A DNA stretch of 64,000 nt from Paraburkholderia phytofirmans PsJN (GTDB taxonomy: Bacteria; Pseudomonadota; Gammaproteobacteria; Burkholderiales; Burkholderiaceae): the NCBI RefSeq assembly GCF_000020125.1, contig NC_010681.1, forward strand, positions 2,480,001-2,544,000. Direction: 5' to 3'. The notes below the pieces were generated by a model. It saw only the letters and a program-made list of their open reading frames with translations. It did not search any database and was not told where the DNA came from. Positions 32,895 to 39,126 of this stretch are shown here, piece after piece (positions within the stretch are counted from its first letter, which is position 1; every line of letters begins with the position of its first letter). Position numbers and translations under genes: made by a program.

Positions 32895-34469
32895 CTACGA
32901 CGCAAGAAACAGTCGATACACCGGGTTCTGCGTCTCTTCCCAGTTCGGATAGCCGAGCGTGGCGAGAAACTTGTTGAACGCCTCGTTCTCGCTATCCGGC
33001 ACCTGGATGCCGACCAGAATCGAGCTATAGTCCGCGCCCTGGTTGCGATAGTGGAACAGGCTGATGTTCCAGTTCGGCGCCATCGACGAAAGGAATTTCA
33101 TCAGCGCGCCTGGCCGTTCGGGAAACTCGAAGCGGAACAGACGTTCGTCGTGTGCCAAGGGCGAGCGCCCGCCGACCATGTAGCGGATGTGCTGCTTGGA
33201 GAGTTCGTCGAACGTCAGATCGACGGTGGCGAAGCCGTGCGCTTCAAACGCGCCCGCGATCTGCGCCGACTCGCTGCGATTCCTGATCTGCACGCCCACG
33301 AAGATATGGGCGGAGTTCGCATCCGCAATACGATAGTTGAATTCGGTGACGCTGCGTGTGCCGACCAGTTCGCAGAAGCGGCGGAAACTGCCGCGCTCTT
33401 CGGGGATCGTCACGGCGAACACCGCTTCGCGCGCTTCGCCGACTTCGGCGCGCTCGGCCACGAAGCGCATGCGGTCGAAATTCATGTTCGCGCCCGACGT
33501 GATCGCGATCAGCGTCTGGTTCTCGATGCCTTCGCGCTCCGCATACTGCTTGGCGCCGGCCACGGCCAGCGAGCCCGCGGGCTCCAGCACACTGCGGGTG
33601 TCCTGGAAGACGTCCTTGATCGCGGCGCAGAGCGCGTCGGTATTCACGAGCAGCACGTCGTCGAGATATTCGCTGCACAGGCGGAAGGTTTCTTCACCGA
33701 CGAGTTTCACCGCCGTGCCGTCCGAGAACAGACCGACCTCATTCAGCGTGACCCGCTCACCGGCTTTCAGCGATGCTGCCATTGCACACGAATCATCGGT
33801 CTGCACGCCGATCACCTTGATCTCGGGCCGCACCGATTTCACGTATGCAGCCACACCCGCCGCCAGTCCACCGCCGCCGATCGGCACGAAGATCGCGTGA
33901 ATCGGCCCCTGATGCTGGCTGAGAATTTCCATCGCCACGGTGCCCTGGCCGGCGATCACATACGGATCGTCGAACGGATGCACGAAGGTCAGATCGCGCT
34001 CTTTTTGCAGCTTTACTGCGTGCTCATACGCGTCGCTATACGATTCGCCGAACTGCACCACTTCGACGGTCGGGCCGCCGTGCGCGCGCACCGCGTCGAC
34101 CTTCACCTGCGGCGTCGTAACCGGCACCACGATGATCGCTTTCACGCCCATACGCGCCGCCGACAGCGCCACGCCCTGCGCATGATTGCCCGCCGACGCC
34201 GTAATCACCCCACGTTCCAACGCTTCAGCGGAAATATGCGCCATTTTGTTGTACGCGCCGCGCACCTTGAACGAGAACACCGGCTGGTTGTCCTCGCGCT
34301 TCAGATAGACCGGATTGCGCAGACGTGCCGACAGATTCGGCGCGCGTTCGAGTTCGGTCTCGCGGGCCACGTCGTAGACGCGCGCGGTCAGGGTTTTTTT
34401 CAGGTAGTCGTGGCGCAGCGCGACGCTATCGGCGGCTTCGGCCACCTGTTTGAGTTGGTGTAACGACAA
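32895..34469 (-). CDS. ilvA: Threonine ammonia-lyase (threonine deaminase), biosynthetic
   Basis: 524 residues. The N-terminal PLP domain has the Schiff-base Lys in 'FSFKVRGAYNKM' (K68), 'SAGNHAQGVALSA' and the phosphate-binding 'IGGGGLAAG'. Two C-terminal ACT-like regulatory domains (about 335-520) are present, as in E. coli IlvA, so isoleucine feedback is expected. It converts threonine to 2-ketobutyrate, the first step to isoleucine. The TTG start follows AGGAG by 6 bases. An Ile-rich leader peptide and terminator lie directly upstream, indicating attenuation. Confidence 0.95.
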   Translation of the reverse strand: MSLHQLKQVAEAADSVALRHDYLKKTLTARVYDVARETELERAPNLSARLRNPVYLKREDNQPVFSFKVRGAYNKMAHISAEALERGVITASAGNHAQGVALSAARMGVKAIIVVPVTTPQVKVDAVRAHGGPTVEVVQFGESYSDAYEHAVKLQKERDLTFVHPFDDPYVIAGQGTVAMEILSQHQGPIHAIFVPIGGGGLAAGVAAYVKSVRPEIKVIGVQTDDSCAMAASLKAGERVTLNEVGLFSDGTAVKLVGEETFRLCSEYLDDVLLVNTDALCAAIKDVFQDTRSVLEPAGSLAVAGAKQYAEREGIENQTLIAITSGANMNFDRMRFVAERAEVGEAREAVFAVTIPEERGSFRRFCELVGTRSVTEFNYRIADANSAHIFVGVQIRNRSESAQIAGAFEAHGFATVDLTFDELSKQHIRYMVGGRSPLAHDERLFRFEFPERPGALMKFLSSMAPNWNISLFHYRNQGADYSSILVGIQVPDSENEAFNKFLATLGYPNWEETQNPVYRLFLAS

Positions 34470-34537
34470 GGCAAGCTCCTGTGCGGCAAGGACGAATCAG
34501 CAGAGAGTTCACCAGGAGGCAGGCTGCAAGCGGACAT

Positions 34538-34564
34538 AAAAAAACCCGCCTCGTGGGGCGGGTT
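34538..34564 (-). terminator. Attenuator terminator in the ilvA leader
   Basis: On the minus strand an 8-base stem AACCCGCC/GGCGGGTT (34557-34564 with 34543-34550) with a 6-base loop runs into seven T. It lies after the leader peptide and 68 bases before ilvA, so it stops transcription before the structural gene. Confidence 0.88.
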
Positions 34565-34589
34565 ATGTGTCACTGCTATCCGACGCGCG

Positions 34590-34652
34590 CTAACCCACCA
34601 TTCGATGAATGATGCTAATAATCAGCGCAATACGGATGTCGAGGCAGTTCAT
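34590..34652 (-). CDS. Leader peptide for ilvA attenuation, 20 residues
   Basis: MNCLDIRIALIISIIHRMVG followed by TAG. Six of 20 residues are Ile, with two pairs of adjacent Ile codons, and further Leu and Val codons. Its position between a TTGACA box and a T-tailed terminator ahead of ilvA is classical for a branched-chain amino acid leader. The ribosome site is weak (GAAGA), and initiation may be near-leaderless. The peptide itself needs no function; stalling of its translation is the signal for isoleucine shortage. Confidence 0.85.
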   Translation of the reverse strand: MNCLDIRIALIISIIHRMVG

Positions 34653-34815
34653 GCGTTCGATCTTCGTTGACTTGAGGCGCTTTGTCAATCCCCGCTAATT
34701 GCCATGCTCACCGCGGCGAGTTATCCGCATGACTGCCACATGCGCTCGCCACCACGCTCGCCCGCCGTCACGAACAACATCGTGACTACGACGCCGAGTC
34801 TGCGCGATGCGACGA

Positions 34816-36084
34816 TCAATGCACCCCGCTCTGCTTCCTGAAGGCGTCGAGAATGCGCTTTTCAAGCGAGTTGTAATCGCCGCCAAAGTGATGATCGCCA
34901 GACGTGCGAATCACCTCGATGCCGGTTTTGGTCAGCGTCGGACACAAGGTGTCCTTCTCGTTCTCGCCGTAGAAGCACTGCACGATGGCGGGCGGCACGC
35001 GCGTCAATTCCGGCTGGACCTTCAACGCCTTGTCGCTTGCCGGCATGCCGAGCCAGCCGCCCACGCGAATCTGAAAATCGGCATCGGGCGCGAAGCCGAG
35101 CAGCGCGATCAGCGAGACCTTCGCGCGCAACGCTTCCGGCAGACGGTTATAGGCGAACGGCATCACATCCGCGCCGAACGAATAGCCGACGAGCGCAATA
35201 TGCTGCGCATTCCAGCGCGCGCCGTAGGTTTGCATCACGCGCGCGAGGTCGCGGCTGGTTTGCGCGGGCGGCTTCTCGCTCCAGAAATAGCGCAAGCTGT
35301 CCCAACCGATCACGGAGACGCCGTCTTTCTGCAAAGCCTGCGCGATCGTCTTGTCGAGATCGCGCCAGCCGCCGTCGCCGGAAATCACGATGGCCATCAG
35401 GCCGTTTGGATGCGCCGCCGGCAATTCGATGAGCGGCAGATCGGAAACGTCGTCGTCGCTCGTCGACACGGCCTGCAAATGCGGCGTGAGCAACGCGACG
35501 AGGCGCGCGCGATCCGCATTGCCCGTGGCCGCCTTTTCGACGAAACCGGGCACCTTGTCGCGGATAATCGTCGGGTCCGGCGGGCAAGGCTGAAAGCGTG
35601 CATCGAGCGTGTGCTCGGCATCCACCGCGACCGCGCCGGCAATCGTATTCGACGGCGCCTGTTCGAGCACATGCATCGCGAGCGTGGCACCCTGACCCGT
35701 GCCCGCGACGATCGGCGCGAAATAATGGCTCGACTTCGACTGCCGTTCGAGCTGATGGCTCAACGCTTCCGCATCGCCCACCAGTTGATGGCAGGCCTCT
35801 TTCTTCGCGGCCAGATTGGCGGCGTAGCGAGCCGTGTCGACACCGACGGTCAACGCACCGGCCTTGGCGAGCGCATCGGCGCTCTGCTGATCCGCCGCGC
35901 TCCAGCCGCTCGCTTGCGAGTACAGCACCACGAAGCCGCGTAACGGACCGGGTCCAGTCGGCTGAGTGACCGTGACGTCGCCATAACGGCCGCCGGGCAC
36001 CGTGGTGGTTGCCGCGTGCGCGAGCGCGCCACCGGTCACGAGGCTCGCTGCGAGAGCGAGCTTGAACAACGAATGCAATGTCAT
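34816..36084 (-). CDS. acvB: AcvB/VirJ-family periplasmic hydrolase
   Basis: 422 residues with a signal peptide (cut after 'AHA', about residue 24) and an alpha/beta-hydrolase domain in the C-terminal half. Features are 'IVISGDGGWRDLDKTIA', the nucleophile elbow 'LVGYSFGADVMPF' and the terminal His region 'SGDHHFGGDY'. AcvB-family proteins in Agrobacterium and Rhizobium hydrolyse lysyl-phosphatidylglycerol in the periplasm. The ATG overlaps the mprF stop (ATGA), so synthesis and breakdown of the same lipid are coupled. A GGAGG ribosome site also precedes the ATG. Confidence 0.9.
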   Translation of the reverse strand: MTLHSLFKLALAASLVTGGALAHAATTTVPGGRYGDVTVTQPTGPGPLRGFVVLYSQASGWSAADQQSADALAKAGALTVGVDTARYAANLAAKKEACHQLVGDAEALSHQLERQSKSSHYFAPIVAGTGQGATLAMHVLEQAPSNTIAGAVAVDAEHTLDARFQPCPPDPTIIRDKVPGFVEKAATGNADRARLVALLTPHLQAVSTSDDDVSDLPLIELPAAHPNGLMAIVISGDGGWRDLDKTIAQALQKDGVSVIGWDSLRYFWSEKPPAQTSRDLARVMQTYGARWNAQHIALVGYSFGADVMPFAYNRLPEALRAKVSLIALLGFAPDADFQIRVGGWLGMPASDKALKVQPELTRVPPAIVQCFYGENEKDTLCPTLTKTGIEVIRTSGDHHFGGDYNSLEKRILDAFRKQSGVH

Positions 36085-38675
36085 GAACGCCGGCCTCCTG
36101 CCAGCAATGACAGGTCCGCGAGCGTGAAGAACACGCCGACCGAACCCGACGCCGCGAGATAGCGCGGCTCCCAATGCGGCTGGAACTTGCTTTTGAAAGC
36201 ACGCAGTCCGCGGAAGTTATAGAAACGGCCGCCGAAGCGCCATACGATGCCGGCGAACCGGTGCCAGCGCGACGCCAGCGGCGTGGGCTGCATGCCGGAG
36301 AGCGGTGCGATGCCGAGACTGAGCGAGCGGAATCCCGCCTGCTTCAGATGCAGCGCCAGTTGCGTGAACAGATATTCCATTGCATACGGCGACGCGCTTT
36401 CCACATGACGCATCACGCCGACGGTCGCCTCGGTGTTCATGTCGGTCGTCATGAAAGTGACGAAAGCAGCGGGCTCGCCGTTCTGACGCACCAGCATCAC
36501 CGATTGCGCGGCGAGATATTCGTCCGTGAAGGCGGCCACCGAGAAGCTCTTTTCGCGCGCGTCGCGGCTGTCGAGCCAACCGTCGGAAATCTCGCGCAAC
36601 GTGTCGAGCGACGCGGGCACGTTCGCCTGATCGATCACTTCGACGGTGAAGCCATCGCGCTCGCCACGCTTTAACGCATAGCGAAGATGCGCGCGATGCG
36701 AGCCCTTCAGGTCGAAATCGTCGAGCACGACGTGCGCTTCCTCGCCGAGCTTCATCAGCGTGAGGCCGGCATCGAGGTAAAGCGGCAATGCGTTCGCGCG
36801 CACCTGATAGAACGCAGCGCGGCCGCCGTGCGTGTGCGCGAGCGCGACGAACTTGCCTATCAGACCGGCCCACTCTTCGCGCGGACCCACCGGATCGTGC
36901 AAAGCGGCCCACGTGCGGCCGTATTTCGCGTACATCAGGAAAGCCTTGCGCGACTCGGAGAACAGGAAGCTCTTGTCGCCCATCAGTGCGAGACCGGCGT
37001 CGCTGCGTTCCTGCGCGCGCACAATGCGCGCCGCGTCGTGCAGATCTTGCGGCGCAGGTTTGACGAAGCGCCCCGGCGCGGGACGCAGCAGCTGCCAGAA
37101 CGAGAACGTCGCAGCGAACAGGCTCGCGGCCAGCGTCGCGCGCAATGCACGCGGCGCGCGTTCGTCGAAGGCGAATTGCCACCACAGGTCGCGCGTGTAC
37201 GGCACGTCGCGGAAAGCAAACAGCATGACCCAGGTGGCCAGCATCAGCACCATCGCGACCGACACCAGCCAGCCCGCCGTGAAGCGCTCCGCGAACAGCG
37301 ACGAATGACGGTTGAAACGCCTGCGCGTGGACAGCAGCAACACGACCAGCATGCCGAGCACGCCGGCTTCCACGAACGCGAGACCTTTGGTCAGCGACAA
37401 CGCGAGACTCAGCACCGCCAGCAGAAGCGTCATCCACCACGCGGCGTCCAGGCGCCGCAGCAAACCACGCGCGACGAACAGCAGCAGCACGCCCAGCACG
37501 CTGCAAAGCATCTGCGAACTTTCGAGCACCCACAGCGGCAGCACGTTGCGCAGCATGTGAATGCGTTGCCAGAACGCGGGCGTCGCGCTGGAAATCACCA
37601 GCATGCCGCCGACCACGAAGGTGACGAGACTCAGAAACAGCGGCGCGAGCTTCGACGCCGCAGCGGCATGTTGCAGCGGCAAACGGCTTTTCAGCGCGCG
37701 CCCTTCGAATCCGGCGAGCAGCGCGGCCGAAACGATCAACGGGACACCGAAGTAAATCGCGCGATACGCGAGCAAGGCCGCAACCATCTGATGCGTTTGC
37801 ACGCTGCCGTTCAGCGTGAACACCATCGCTGCTTCGAACACGCCGACGCCGCCGGGCGTGTGGCCGATCATGCCGAGCAGCATGGCCGCGGCGTACACCG
37901 TGATGAAGGTCACAAAGCTCACGTCCGCATGTGGCAGCAGCGCCCACAAGGCGAGGCCGGCGGCCACCACATCGAGCACCGCGAGCGCCACTTGCGCGAG
38001 CAGATCGCGGCGTGCGGGGATATCGAACGAGAGCCACTGCCAGCGCGTGCGCACCGGGCGCGTTTCGCCGCGGCAGGCGGCCGCCGCCGAGGCGAGCGCG
38101 GCGAGCAGCGCCACGCCGGTCCAACGCAGCGTAAGCGGTTCGAGATGCAGCATCGGTGCGAGCGTGCCGGCCACGCCGACCATGCCGAGCGCCGTCATCA
38201 GCACCAGTGCGAGCGCGAGCGACACGCTCGTGAACACCGTCATGCGGCCGATCTGCGCGGGCGTGACGCTCGCCACGCTGTAGACCCGCGCGCGCACGGC
38301 GCCTCCGGTCAGCGCGCCGAAACCGGTGGCGTTGCCCAGCGCCGAGCCCGCCGTCGCGCCGATCCACAGCGCCACACGCGGCACGGCCGCGCCCAGATAG
38401 CGCAACCCGACGGCATCGCGGCCGACCAGCGCCACGTAGCTGAGCGCGGTGGCGCCGAGCGCGGCGCTCCATTCGCCGGCCGTCAGTCGACGCAACTCGC
38501 GCATCACCGAGCGATAGTCGACTGCTTGCGAGAGGTGTTGCAAGACGACCAGCAGCAACGCGCCAATTCCAAGCGCGAGCAGGGGCGAGAGAAGTGCCCG
38601 GTTGCCGAGCGTTTTCGACGCCCGGTCGAACATCGCGCCTAGCCGGTCGAATTTATAGTTATATCGATGGAACAT
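36081..38675 (-). CDS. mprF: Bifunctional lysylphosphatidylglycerol flippase/synthetase
   Basis: 864 residues. The N-terminal half is a multi-spanning flippase domain ('GHTPGGVGVFEAAMVFTLNG'); the C-terminal third (about 560-850) is the cytoplasmic aminoacyl-tRNA:PG transferase domain with 'MGDKSFLFSES', 'HRAHLRYALKRGERDG' and 'YAMEYLFTQLALHLKQAGF'. It attaches lysine from Lys-tRNA to phosphatidylglycerol and moves the product outward, lowering surface charge and protecting against cationic peptides and acid. ATG 38675 ('MFHRYNY') is chosen; an upstream ATG at 38732 lacks a ribosome site. It forms an operon with acvB. Confidence 0.92.
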   Translation of the reverse strand: MFHRYNYKFDRLGAMFDRASKTLGNRALLSPLLALGIGALLLVVLQHLSQAVDYRSVMRELRRLTAGEWSAALGATALSYVALVGRDAVGLRYLGAAVPRVALWIGATAGSALGNATGFGALTGGAVRARVYSVASVTPAQIGRMTVFTSVSLALALVLMTALGMVGVAGTLAPMLHLEPLTLRWTGVALLAALASAAAACRGETRPVRTRWQWLSFDIPARRDLLAQVALAVLDVVAAGLALWALLPHADVSFVTFITVYAAAMLLGMIGHTPGGVGVFEAAMVFTLNGSVQTHQMVAALLAYRAIYFGVPLIVSAALLAGFEGRALKSRLPLQHAAAASKLAPLFLSLVTFVVGGMLVISSATPAFWQRIHMLRNVLPLWVLESSQMLCSVLGVLLLFVARGLLRRLDAAWWMTLLLAVLSLALSLTKGLAFVEAGVLGMLVVLLLSTRRRFNRHSSLFAERFTAGWLVSVAMVLMLATWVMLFAFRDVPYTRDLWWQFAFDERAPRALRATLAASLFAATFSFWQLLRPAPGRFVKPAPQDLHDAARIVRAQERSDAGLALMGDKSFLFSESRKAFLMYAKYGRTWAALHDPVGPREEWAGLIGKFVALAHTHGGRAAFYQVRANALPLYLDAGLTLMKLGEEAHVVLDDFDLKGSHRAHLRYALKRGERDGFTVEVIDQANVPASLDTLREISDGWLDSRDAREKSFSVAAFTDEYLAAQSVMLVRQNGEPAAFVTFMTTDMNTEATVGVMRHVESASPYAMEYLFTQLALHLKQAGFRSLSLGIAPLSGMQPTPLASRWHRFAGIVWRFGGRFYNFRGLRAFKSKFQPHWEPRYLAASGSVGVFFTLADLSLLAGGRRS

Positions 38676-39126
38676 GGTCAATGCTGGGCCTTGCTTGGAG
38701 CTGTTGCGACGACGGATCGTCTGCCGCGGCATCGCCGGCTAATGGCGATTACAAATGGATAACGGCACAGGGGTAAAAAGGTTGACAGCGTCAGCCGTAT
38801 TGCGGGGGTTTAACCTGATAACGCCATTGGATTTGAAAGCGCCGCGCGGCGCGCCACGGCGATTTGCGTGAATATGCGGTCGATATTGCCGATTGCGGCG
38901 CGAGCGAGGCGCGCCTGATAGCTGACAAGGGGCTGAAGTTTAAACGCTATTTGCGCGCTGAGAATGAAGATTCGACGTCGCGTCGATCGCATGCGCATGC
39001 CGTATCGCTCGATGTGTTGAAGCACGGCATCAAGATTTTCTCTTCGCGTGCCGTAATCGAGAGCAATAGCTCAGTGAAACGCGGCGCATTTGCCGGGTGA
39101 AATTCGGTACTTGAAGGGGAATGAAG
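38676..39126. other. Intergenic region upstream of mprF, 451 bases
   Basis: Between mprF (minus) and a very small plus-strand gene. A perfect 14-base GC palindrome lies at 38839-38852. A TTGACA occurs at 38782-38787 on the plus strand, but without a -10 at proper distance. Two antiparallel open frames (38810-39025 minus, 38864-39100 plus) show no ribosome site or protein-like character. The mprF promoter must be here but was not identified. Confidence 0.4.

Follow-up and report, generated by a model that had tools for sequence, protein, structure and literature searches.

The region analysed here, referred to as the window, is a 64,000-nucleotide stretch of the Paraburkholderia phytofirmans PsJN genome (NC_010681.1, positions 2,480,001 to 2,544,000) that carries, on its minus strand, ilvA, encoding a biosynthetic threonine ammonia-lyase. 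The protein scores 820.8 bits against TIGR01124 (cut-off 411.3) and contains the domains PALP and Thr_dehydrat_C. Upstream of ilvA lie a short open reading frame rich in Ile codons, a hairpin followed by a run of T, and the other elements listed here in the order of transcription:

34683..34688, minus strand: -35 box, TTGACA; TTGAC occurs in the displayed Paraburkholderia leader loci, and the distance to the ATG is the same in most of the family
34660..34665, minus strand: -10 box, GAAGAT, after a 17-base spacer and 7 bases 5' of the leader ATG; a weak match to TATAAT, at a position conserved in most of the family
34590..34652, minus strand: leader peptide open reading frame MNCLDIRIALIISIIHRMVG, with its ATG at 34652 and a TAG ending at 34590; probably leaderless
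34541..34625, minus strand: match to Rfam RF00624 (P9), 54.8 bits, gathering cut-off 43, E 7.2e-11
34607..34614, minus strand: segment 1, CAUCAUUC, overlapping Ile codons 14-15 and pairing with segment 2
34592..34603, minus strand: segment 2, GAAUGGUGGGUU, the final leader codons and the first base of the stop; partner of segment 1 or segment 3
34557..34564, minus strand: segment 3, AACCCGCC, 5' arm of the terminator and partner of segment 2
34543..34550, minus strand: segment 4, GGCGGGUU, 3' arm of the terminator
34538..34544, minus strand: run of seven T, the first two shared with the stem
34476..34480, minus strand: Shine-Dalgarno-like AGGAG of ilvA, 6 bases 5' of the TTG start (34469)
32895..34469, minus strand: ilvA (TIGR01124), the gene proposed to be under control

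On the same strand, just 5' of the leader, a VirJ-family gene (34816-36174) overlaps a gene of the LPG_synthase (phosphatidylglycerol lysyltransferase) type at 36081-38732.

A preliminary description of this DNA had proposed a translation-coupled attenuator in front of ilvA, and its account of a 20-residue leader with six Ile codons was correct as written (34652-34590, minus strand). The isoleucines are residues 6, 8, 11, 12, 14 and 15; for six within 19 leader codons a binomial calculation at a rate of 4.5% gives a post hoc P of 1.4e-4, the Ile rate in six window genes being 4.7%. The complementarity claimed between GGTGGGTT (34599-34592) and the 5' arm of the terminator likewise exists, the 2:3 helix including one G-U pair. 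The terminator hairpin spans 34564-34543 with a stem of 8 pairs, and its T run extends to 34538; both the stem and the seven T reported earlier are present, but two T had been counted twice, as they also belong to the stem, which leaves five unpaired U. Absent from that list of parts were segment 1 and the promoter abutting the leader ATG. Folding pairs CAUCAUUC (34614-34607) with GAAUGGUG (34603-34596), and as this 1:2 pairing is found in addition to the leader and the terminator, the classical layout is complete, with all four segments.

The RNA matched in Rfam is folded there into two hairpins, which correspond to segments 1:2 and 3:4 here. When the P9 model was used for searching, it matched 34 of 398 genomes across the phylum (18 above the cut-off), 5 of 150 across the order (4 above the cut-off) and none of 14 control genomes; its three best matches, at 82.8-86.3 bits, all lie 5' of ilvA genes, in genomes that, to judge by the name of the model, would be Pseudomonas. 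As so few genomes were matched, a new model, R1, was built from 15 sequences, five of them from non-ilvA loci, and with it matches were found in 18 of 399 genomes at the level of the order, in 10 of 369 for the class, in 48 of 200 for the family and, for the family to which a P9 genome belongs, in 39 of 99; these genome searches used strict filters, by which weak matches were missed. After exclusion of 21 further matches with E above 1e-5, and of repeats of the same place, 123 matches from 115 genomes were examined, and these yielded 122 leaders, the match at L135 being without an open reading frame. Paraburkholderia and other Burkholderiales share the leader frame, the Ile codons and the pairing segments, as do genomes scoring 83-86 bits with the P9 model, other genomes of the class and a few outside it. 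The preliminary description had staked its proposal in part on conservation of the leader frame and stems in relatives, and they are conserved. A locus 5' of a thrA-like gene, with a Thr/Ile leader (L112), was treated as an attenuator distinct from this one. A third leader, L142 (G457:C13), is present in one genome of the same genus; its hairpin is weaker, the sequence that follows contains no recognised gene, and this leader may be a decayed copy.

A simple promoter scan detected none before the leader in the window, and the promoter is visible through comparison only. In 101 of 115 leaders a distance of 6-8 bases separates the end of the best sigma-70-like promoter from the leader ATG that follows, seven of the 122 (L107, L110, L113, L134, L148, L228 and L239) having been dropped beforehand because attenuator parts were not found or the wrong open reading frame had been picked; with no leader dropped, and with slightly different scoring, the count is 104 of 122. 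When upstream sequences are grouped into clusters of under 55% identity, the same spacing occurs in 41 of 54 clusters versus 9.5% in shuffles, and no Shine-Dalgarno 4-mer precedes the leader in 47 of the 54, one being present in only seven. Exceptions to the spacing at the chosen ATG include L111, L116, L117, L142 and L146; by our own reading, three others (L221, L222 and L223) fit if a second ATG, two codons on, is used. As R1 starts only at the Ile codons and reaches no further than the terminator, the promoter is independent evidence.

In the window, the positions of TTGACA and GAAGAT lead to a predicted transcript start at 34653 or 34652. The leader peptide is therefore probably leaderless, its start being placed at the AUG by the promoter and no Shine-Dalgarno sequence preceding it. 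According to the respective reports, the transcript of trpL in Sinorhizobium meliloti has its 5' end at the leader start codon and is leaderless (PMC7298713), and that of ilvL in Corynebacterium glutamicum starts one base from the leader start codon (PMC11857589). The start predicted here, at or one base from the ATG, resembles both, but these systems are alphaproteobacterial and actinobacterial, respectively, and involve other genes and codons. Further studies record leaderless mRNAs for B. cenocepacia (PMC4603805) and C. metallidurans (PMC7563307), and call their number low in P. aeruginosa (PMC3272035). RF00624 is absent from the Rfam matches in Table 3 of the B. cenocepacia start-site study.

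The 112-base RNA beginning at the ATG folds better than all of 200 shuffles (z -4.1). For a 158-base RNA that includes flanks the z value is -2.5, and four shuffles out of 200 fold as well; the fold of the 66 bases from just 5' of segment 2 onward is not unusual (z -0.6). Covariation was assessed on 85 leaders, 60 of them distinct, from which leaders with segment 2 at another place or with a short segment 2 had been excluded, as had L010, L116, L130, L142, L218 and L219. Across the 60 distinct leaders, the 1:2 helix is paired in 416 of 480 cells (mean 367 and maximum 387 in 2000 shuffles) and shows 61 both-side changes against a shuffle maximum of 35, figures that constitute support and not a probability, as the shuffles ignore sequence relatedness; controls in which the partner was slid along gave 148-278 paired cells out of 420 or 480. 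The main covarying pair (G-C in 29, A-U in 23) joins position 1 of a Thr/Ala codon to position 2 of a Val/Ala codon, and since changes in both bases alter the peptide, the covariation argues for selection on the RNA. The 2:3 and 3:4 helices display no covariation, their sequences being nearly invariant. Segment 2 is complementary to the 5' arm of the terminator in 117 of the 122 leaders, and in 91 of these its position over the stop is the same; in the other five, segment 2 or the terminator was not found, and the selections made for L011 and L144 are evidently wrong.

It could be argued that the hairpin is a mere terminator of the VirJ-like gene, which is on the same strand and has its stop about 250 bases 5' of the hairpin. 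Between the two, however, lie a conserved promoter and the leader open reading frame; the element, moreover, is found 5' of ilvA in numerous genomes, and the complementarity of segments 2 and 3 is as widespread as just described. We regard this explanation as extremely unlikely.

The attenuation reading of the preliminary description draws support from the conserved parts, the 1:2 covariation and the position of the promoter, all of which, together with the conservation itself, are shown here. We conclude that the element is very probably a real and conserved ribosome-mediated transcription attenuator, with charged tRNA-Ile as its signal and ilvA as its target. Transcription would begin at the leader ATG or one base 5' of it, as the promoter position implies, and ribosomes would load on the leaderless AUG. 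When isoleucine is present, the ribosome at the stop codon would cover segment 2, and the 3:4 hairpin would halt RNA polymerase after about 110 bases. A shortage of Ile-tRNA would make the ribosome stall at the Ile codons and cover or disturb segment 1, so that 2:3 could pair and transcription would continue into ilvA. With no ribosome on the RNA, the 1:2 helix would keep segment 2 off segment 3, making termination the default.

A footprint model, which assumes a ribosome edge located 12 bases beyond the A-site and a single minimum-energy fold, predicts eight 2:3 pairs when Ile codon 11, 12 or 14 occupies the A-site and seven when codon 6, 8 or 15 does so; when the A-site holds codon 20 or the stop, no 2:3 pair forms. 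In the ribosome-free fold 1:2 is present and 2:3 absent. Equilibrium folding of the full RNA prefers 3:4 at every modelled ribosome position, and thus the order of synthesis must matter, with 2:3 forming before segment 4 has been made.

The genes that follow the 123 matches, identified with tblastn, belong to one of a few families in 118 cases. IlvA comes next in 61 and DUF4440 then IlvA in 5 (together 66); the remainder comprise AAA_33 (20), DUF4440 with AAA_33 (11), DUF4440 (9), an AAA_18-like P-loop kinase (7), PhzF (3), PhzF with GNAT (1), GNAT (1), other genes (4) and a short contig (1). In L241 (109-2167) a P9-type leader, DUF4440 and ilvA follow one another, the ends of the genes overlapping, and in L249 (244-1117, reverse complement of the locus) an Ile leader is followed by a single open reading frame in which DUF4440/SnoaL is fused to an AAA_33 kinase-like domain. 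The 66 ilvA-linked leaders contain 2-6 Ile each, four having only two Ile codons, and 61 of them have an Ile-Ile pair, as do 16 of 19 AAA_33, all 11 DUF4440 with AAA_33, 8 of 9 DUF4440 and all 7 AAA_18-like leaders; the pair is found in none of the four PhzF-linked leaders and not in the GNAT leader. At the PhzF-type loci (L131, L132, L140 and L012), RMICTT or RMIHST replaces the pair. Ile codons are few in the PhzF leaders (mean 1.3 in three), which may sense something else, perhaps another amino acid. The shared layout makes common descent of all these leaders likely, and the AAA_33, DUF4440 and AAA_18-like genes would be tied to isoleucine through their control, not through known function. 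A separate observation concerns codon choice: in 51 ilvA-linked leaders the Ile codons are mostly ATT (161 ATT, 32 ATC, 3 ATA), whereas six genes of the window prefer ATC (30 ATT, 104 ATC, 5 ATA); the window leader's own Ile codons lie at 34608-34637.

The presence of similar leaders before AAA_33, DUF4440, PhzF and GNAT genes, which are not obviously isoleucine genes, raises the question of whether the signal is a general slowing of ribosomes, or an antibiotic, and not isoleucine. A precedent for drug sensing is PA5471.1-armZ of Pseudomonas aeruginosa, where, according to PMC13041342, a leader peptide is likewise combined with competing hairpins; that system, however, responds to ribosome-targeting drugs, controls an anti-repressor and uses other codons. 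Against drug sensing here are the 66 of 123 matches with ilvA downstream, 5 of them via DUF4440, and the Ile-Ile pair in nearly all of those leaders. We consider drug sensing improbable, and isoleucyl-tRNA remains the favoured signal.

The Rfam entry itself suggests a different function. Rfam assigns RF00624, which the window matches, to the class of genes under the name 'Pseudomonas sRNA P9'; the RNA could accordingly be mainly a trans-acting small RNA in which the open reading frame is incidental; a terminated leader would equally look like an abundant small RNA. The leader frame, the Ile codons, the distance from ATG to promoter and the overlap of segment 2 with the stop are nevertheless conserved, and the narrow range of genes after the matches also speaks against this explanation, which we judge very improbable. 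It is in any case compatible with attenuation: the trp leader of S. meliloti serves as an attenuator and, in addition, as a trans-acting RNA, according to PMC7298713.

The window matches P9 above its gathering cut-off and shares its two hairpins, but, unlike the sRNA of the Rfam label, contains a leader with an open reading frame whose stop overlaps segment 2. Since the three best P9 matches precede ilvA, P9 is best read as this ilvA attenuator. Rfam models of other amino-acid leaders score below their gathering thresholds in the window (Trp RF00513, 23.7 against 41 bits; Leu RF00512, 23.6 against 50; Thr RF00506, 20.7 against 55). A search limited to open-licence papers found no description of a stand-alone ilvA attenuator in these bacteria and no mention of the accession RF00624. 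The earlier remark that such a leader is little described thus holds for the attenuator in that literature but not for the RNA, which was already in Rfam as sRNA P9. The original P9 report is said to be Livny 2006.

The distribution of the leader was also examined at named ilvA loci, the best 80 of 435 ilvA matches (near end only; closest records Paraburkholderia), five of which had no upstream sequence. Among the 75 remaining loci from these best 80 matches, 19 have the leader and terminator. The leader is carried by 18 of 21 loci with no queF detected and is absent from 53 of 54 queF-linked loci; viewed from the other side, queF or its neighbour was not detected nearby in 18 of 19 leader loci and was detected in 53 of 56 loci without the leader. 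Three loci have neither leader nor detected queF (L025 and L049, whose contigs stop at the gene, and L053, which is full-length), and by eye their upstream sequence is of the type seen at queF-linked copies. Leader and queF linkage occur together in one species, P. phosphatilytica (L069).

The genome of the window has a second ilvA (G000:C3:702960-704477, L007), which is queF-linked and has no leader. Over 1512 bases the two copies (window 32902-34413 versus L007) share 99.87% identity, and their flanks are unrelated. In 14 of 14 genomes the within-genome pairs are more alike (95.6-99.9% identity) than either is to its counterparts in the other 13 genomes (at most 94.4%). This pattern suggests gene conversion between the copies that would have spared the upstream switch. 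One genome would thus hold two near-identical ilvA copies, one switchable and the other not, and the second, unattenuated copy would blunt the effect of the attenuator.

The leader attenuators of the enterobacterial ilvGMEDA, trp, thr and leu operons have a four-segment layout, control codons and a terminator with a T run, all of which are present here. Unlike those systems, the gene in the window is a stand-alone ilvA, the leader has no Shine-Dalgarno sequence, and related leaders precede non-biosynthetic genes. The attenuation mechanism is thus known; what appears to be new is the probably leaderless leader and the wider set of genes.

A broader reading is that a widespread leaderless Ile-codon attenuator defines an Ile-tRNA starvation regulon in beta- and gammaproteobacteria, comprising ilvA, DUF4440 proteins and P-loop kinases (the last two sharing operons or fused, and DUF4440 also standing before ilvA), with sRNA P9 as its Pseudomonas ilvA branch. 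We put this forward tentatively, as a proposal whose chances fall a little short of even. If it is true, the DUF4440 and P-loop kinase genes would serve as a stress response triggered when isoleucine runs low or isoleucyl-tRNA synthetase is inhibited. This study points to an amino-acid attenuator with a probably leaderless leader peptide in beta- and gammaproteobacteria, gives the Rfam 'sRNA' P9 an identity that can be tested, and provides for the DUF4440 and AAA_33 genes a metabolic clue, the supply of isoleucine.
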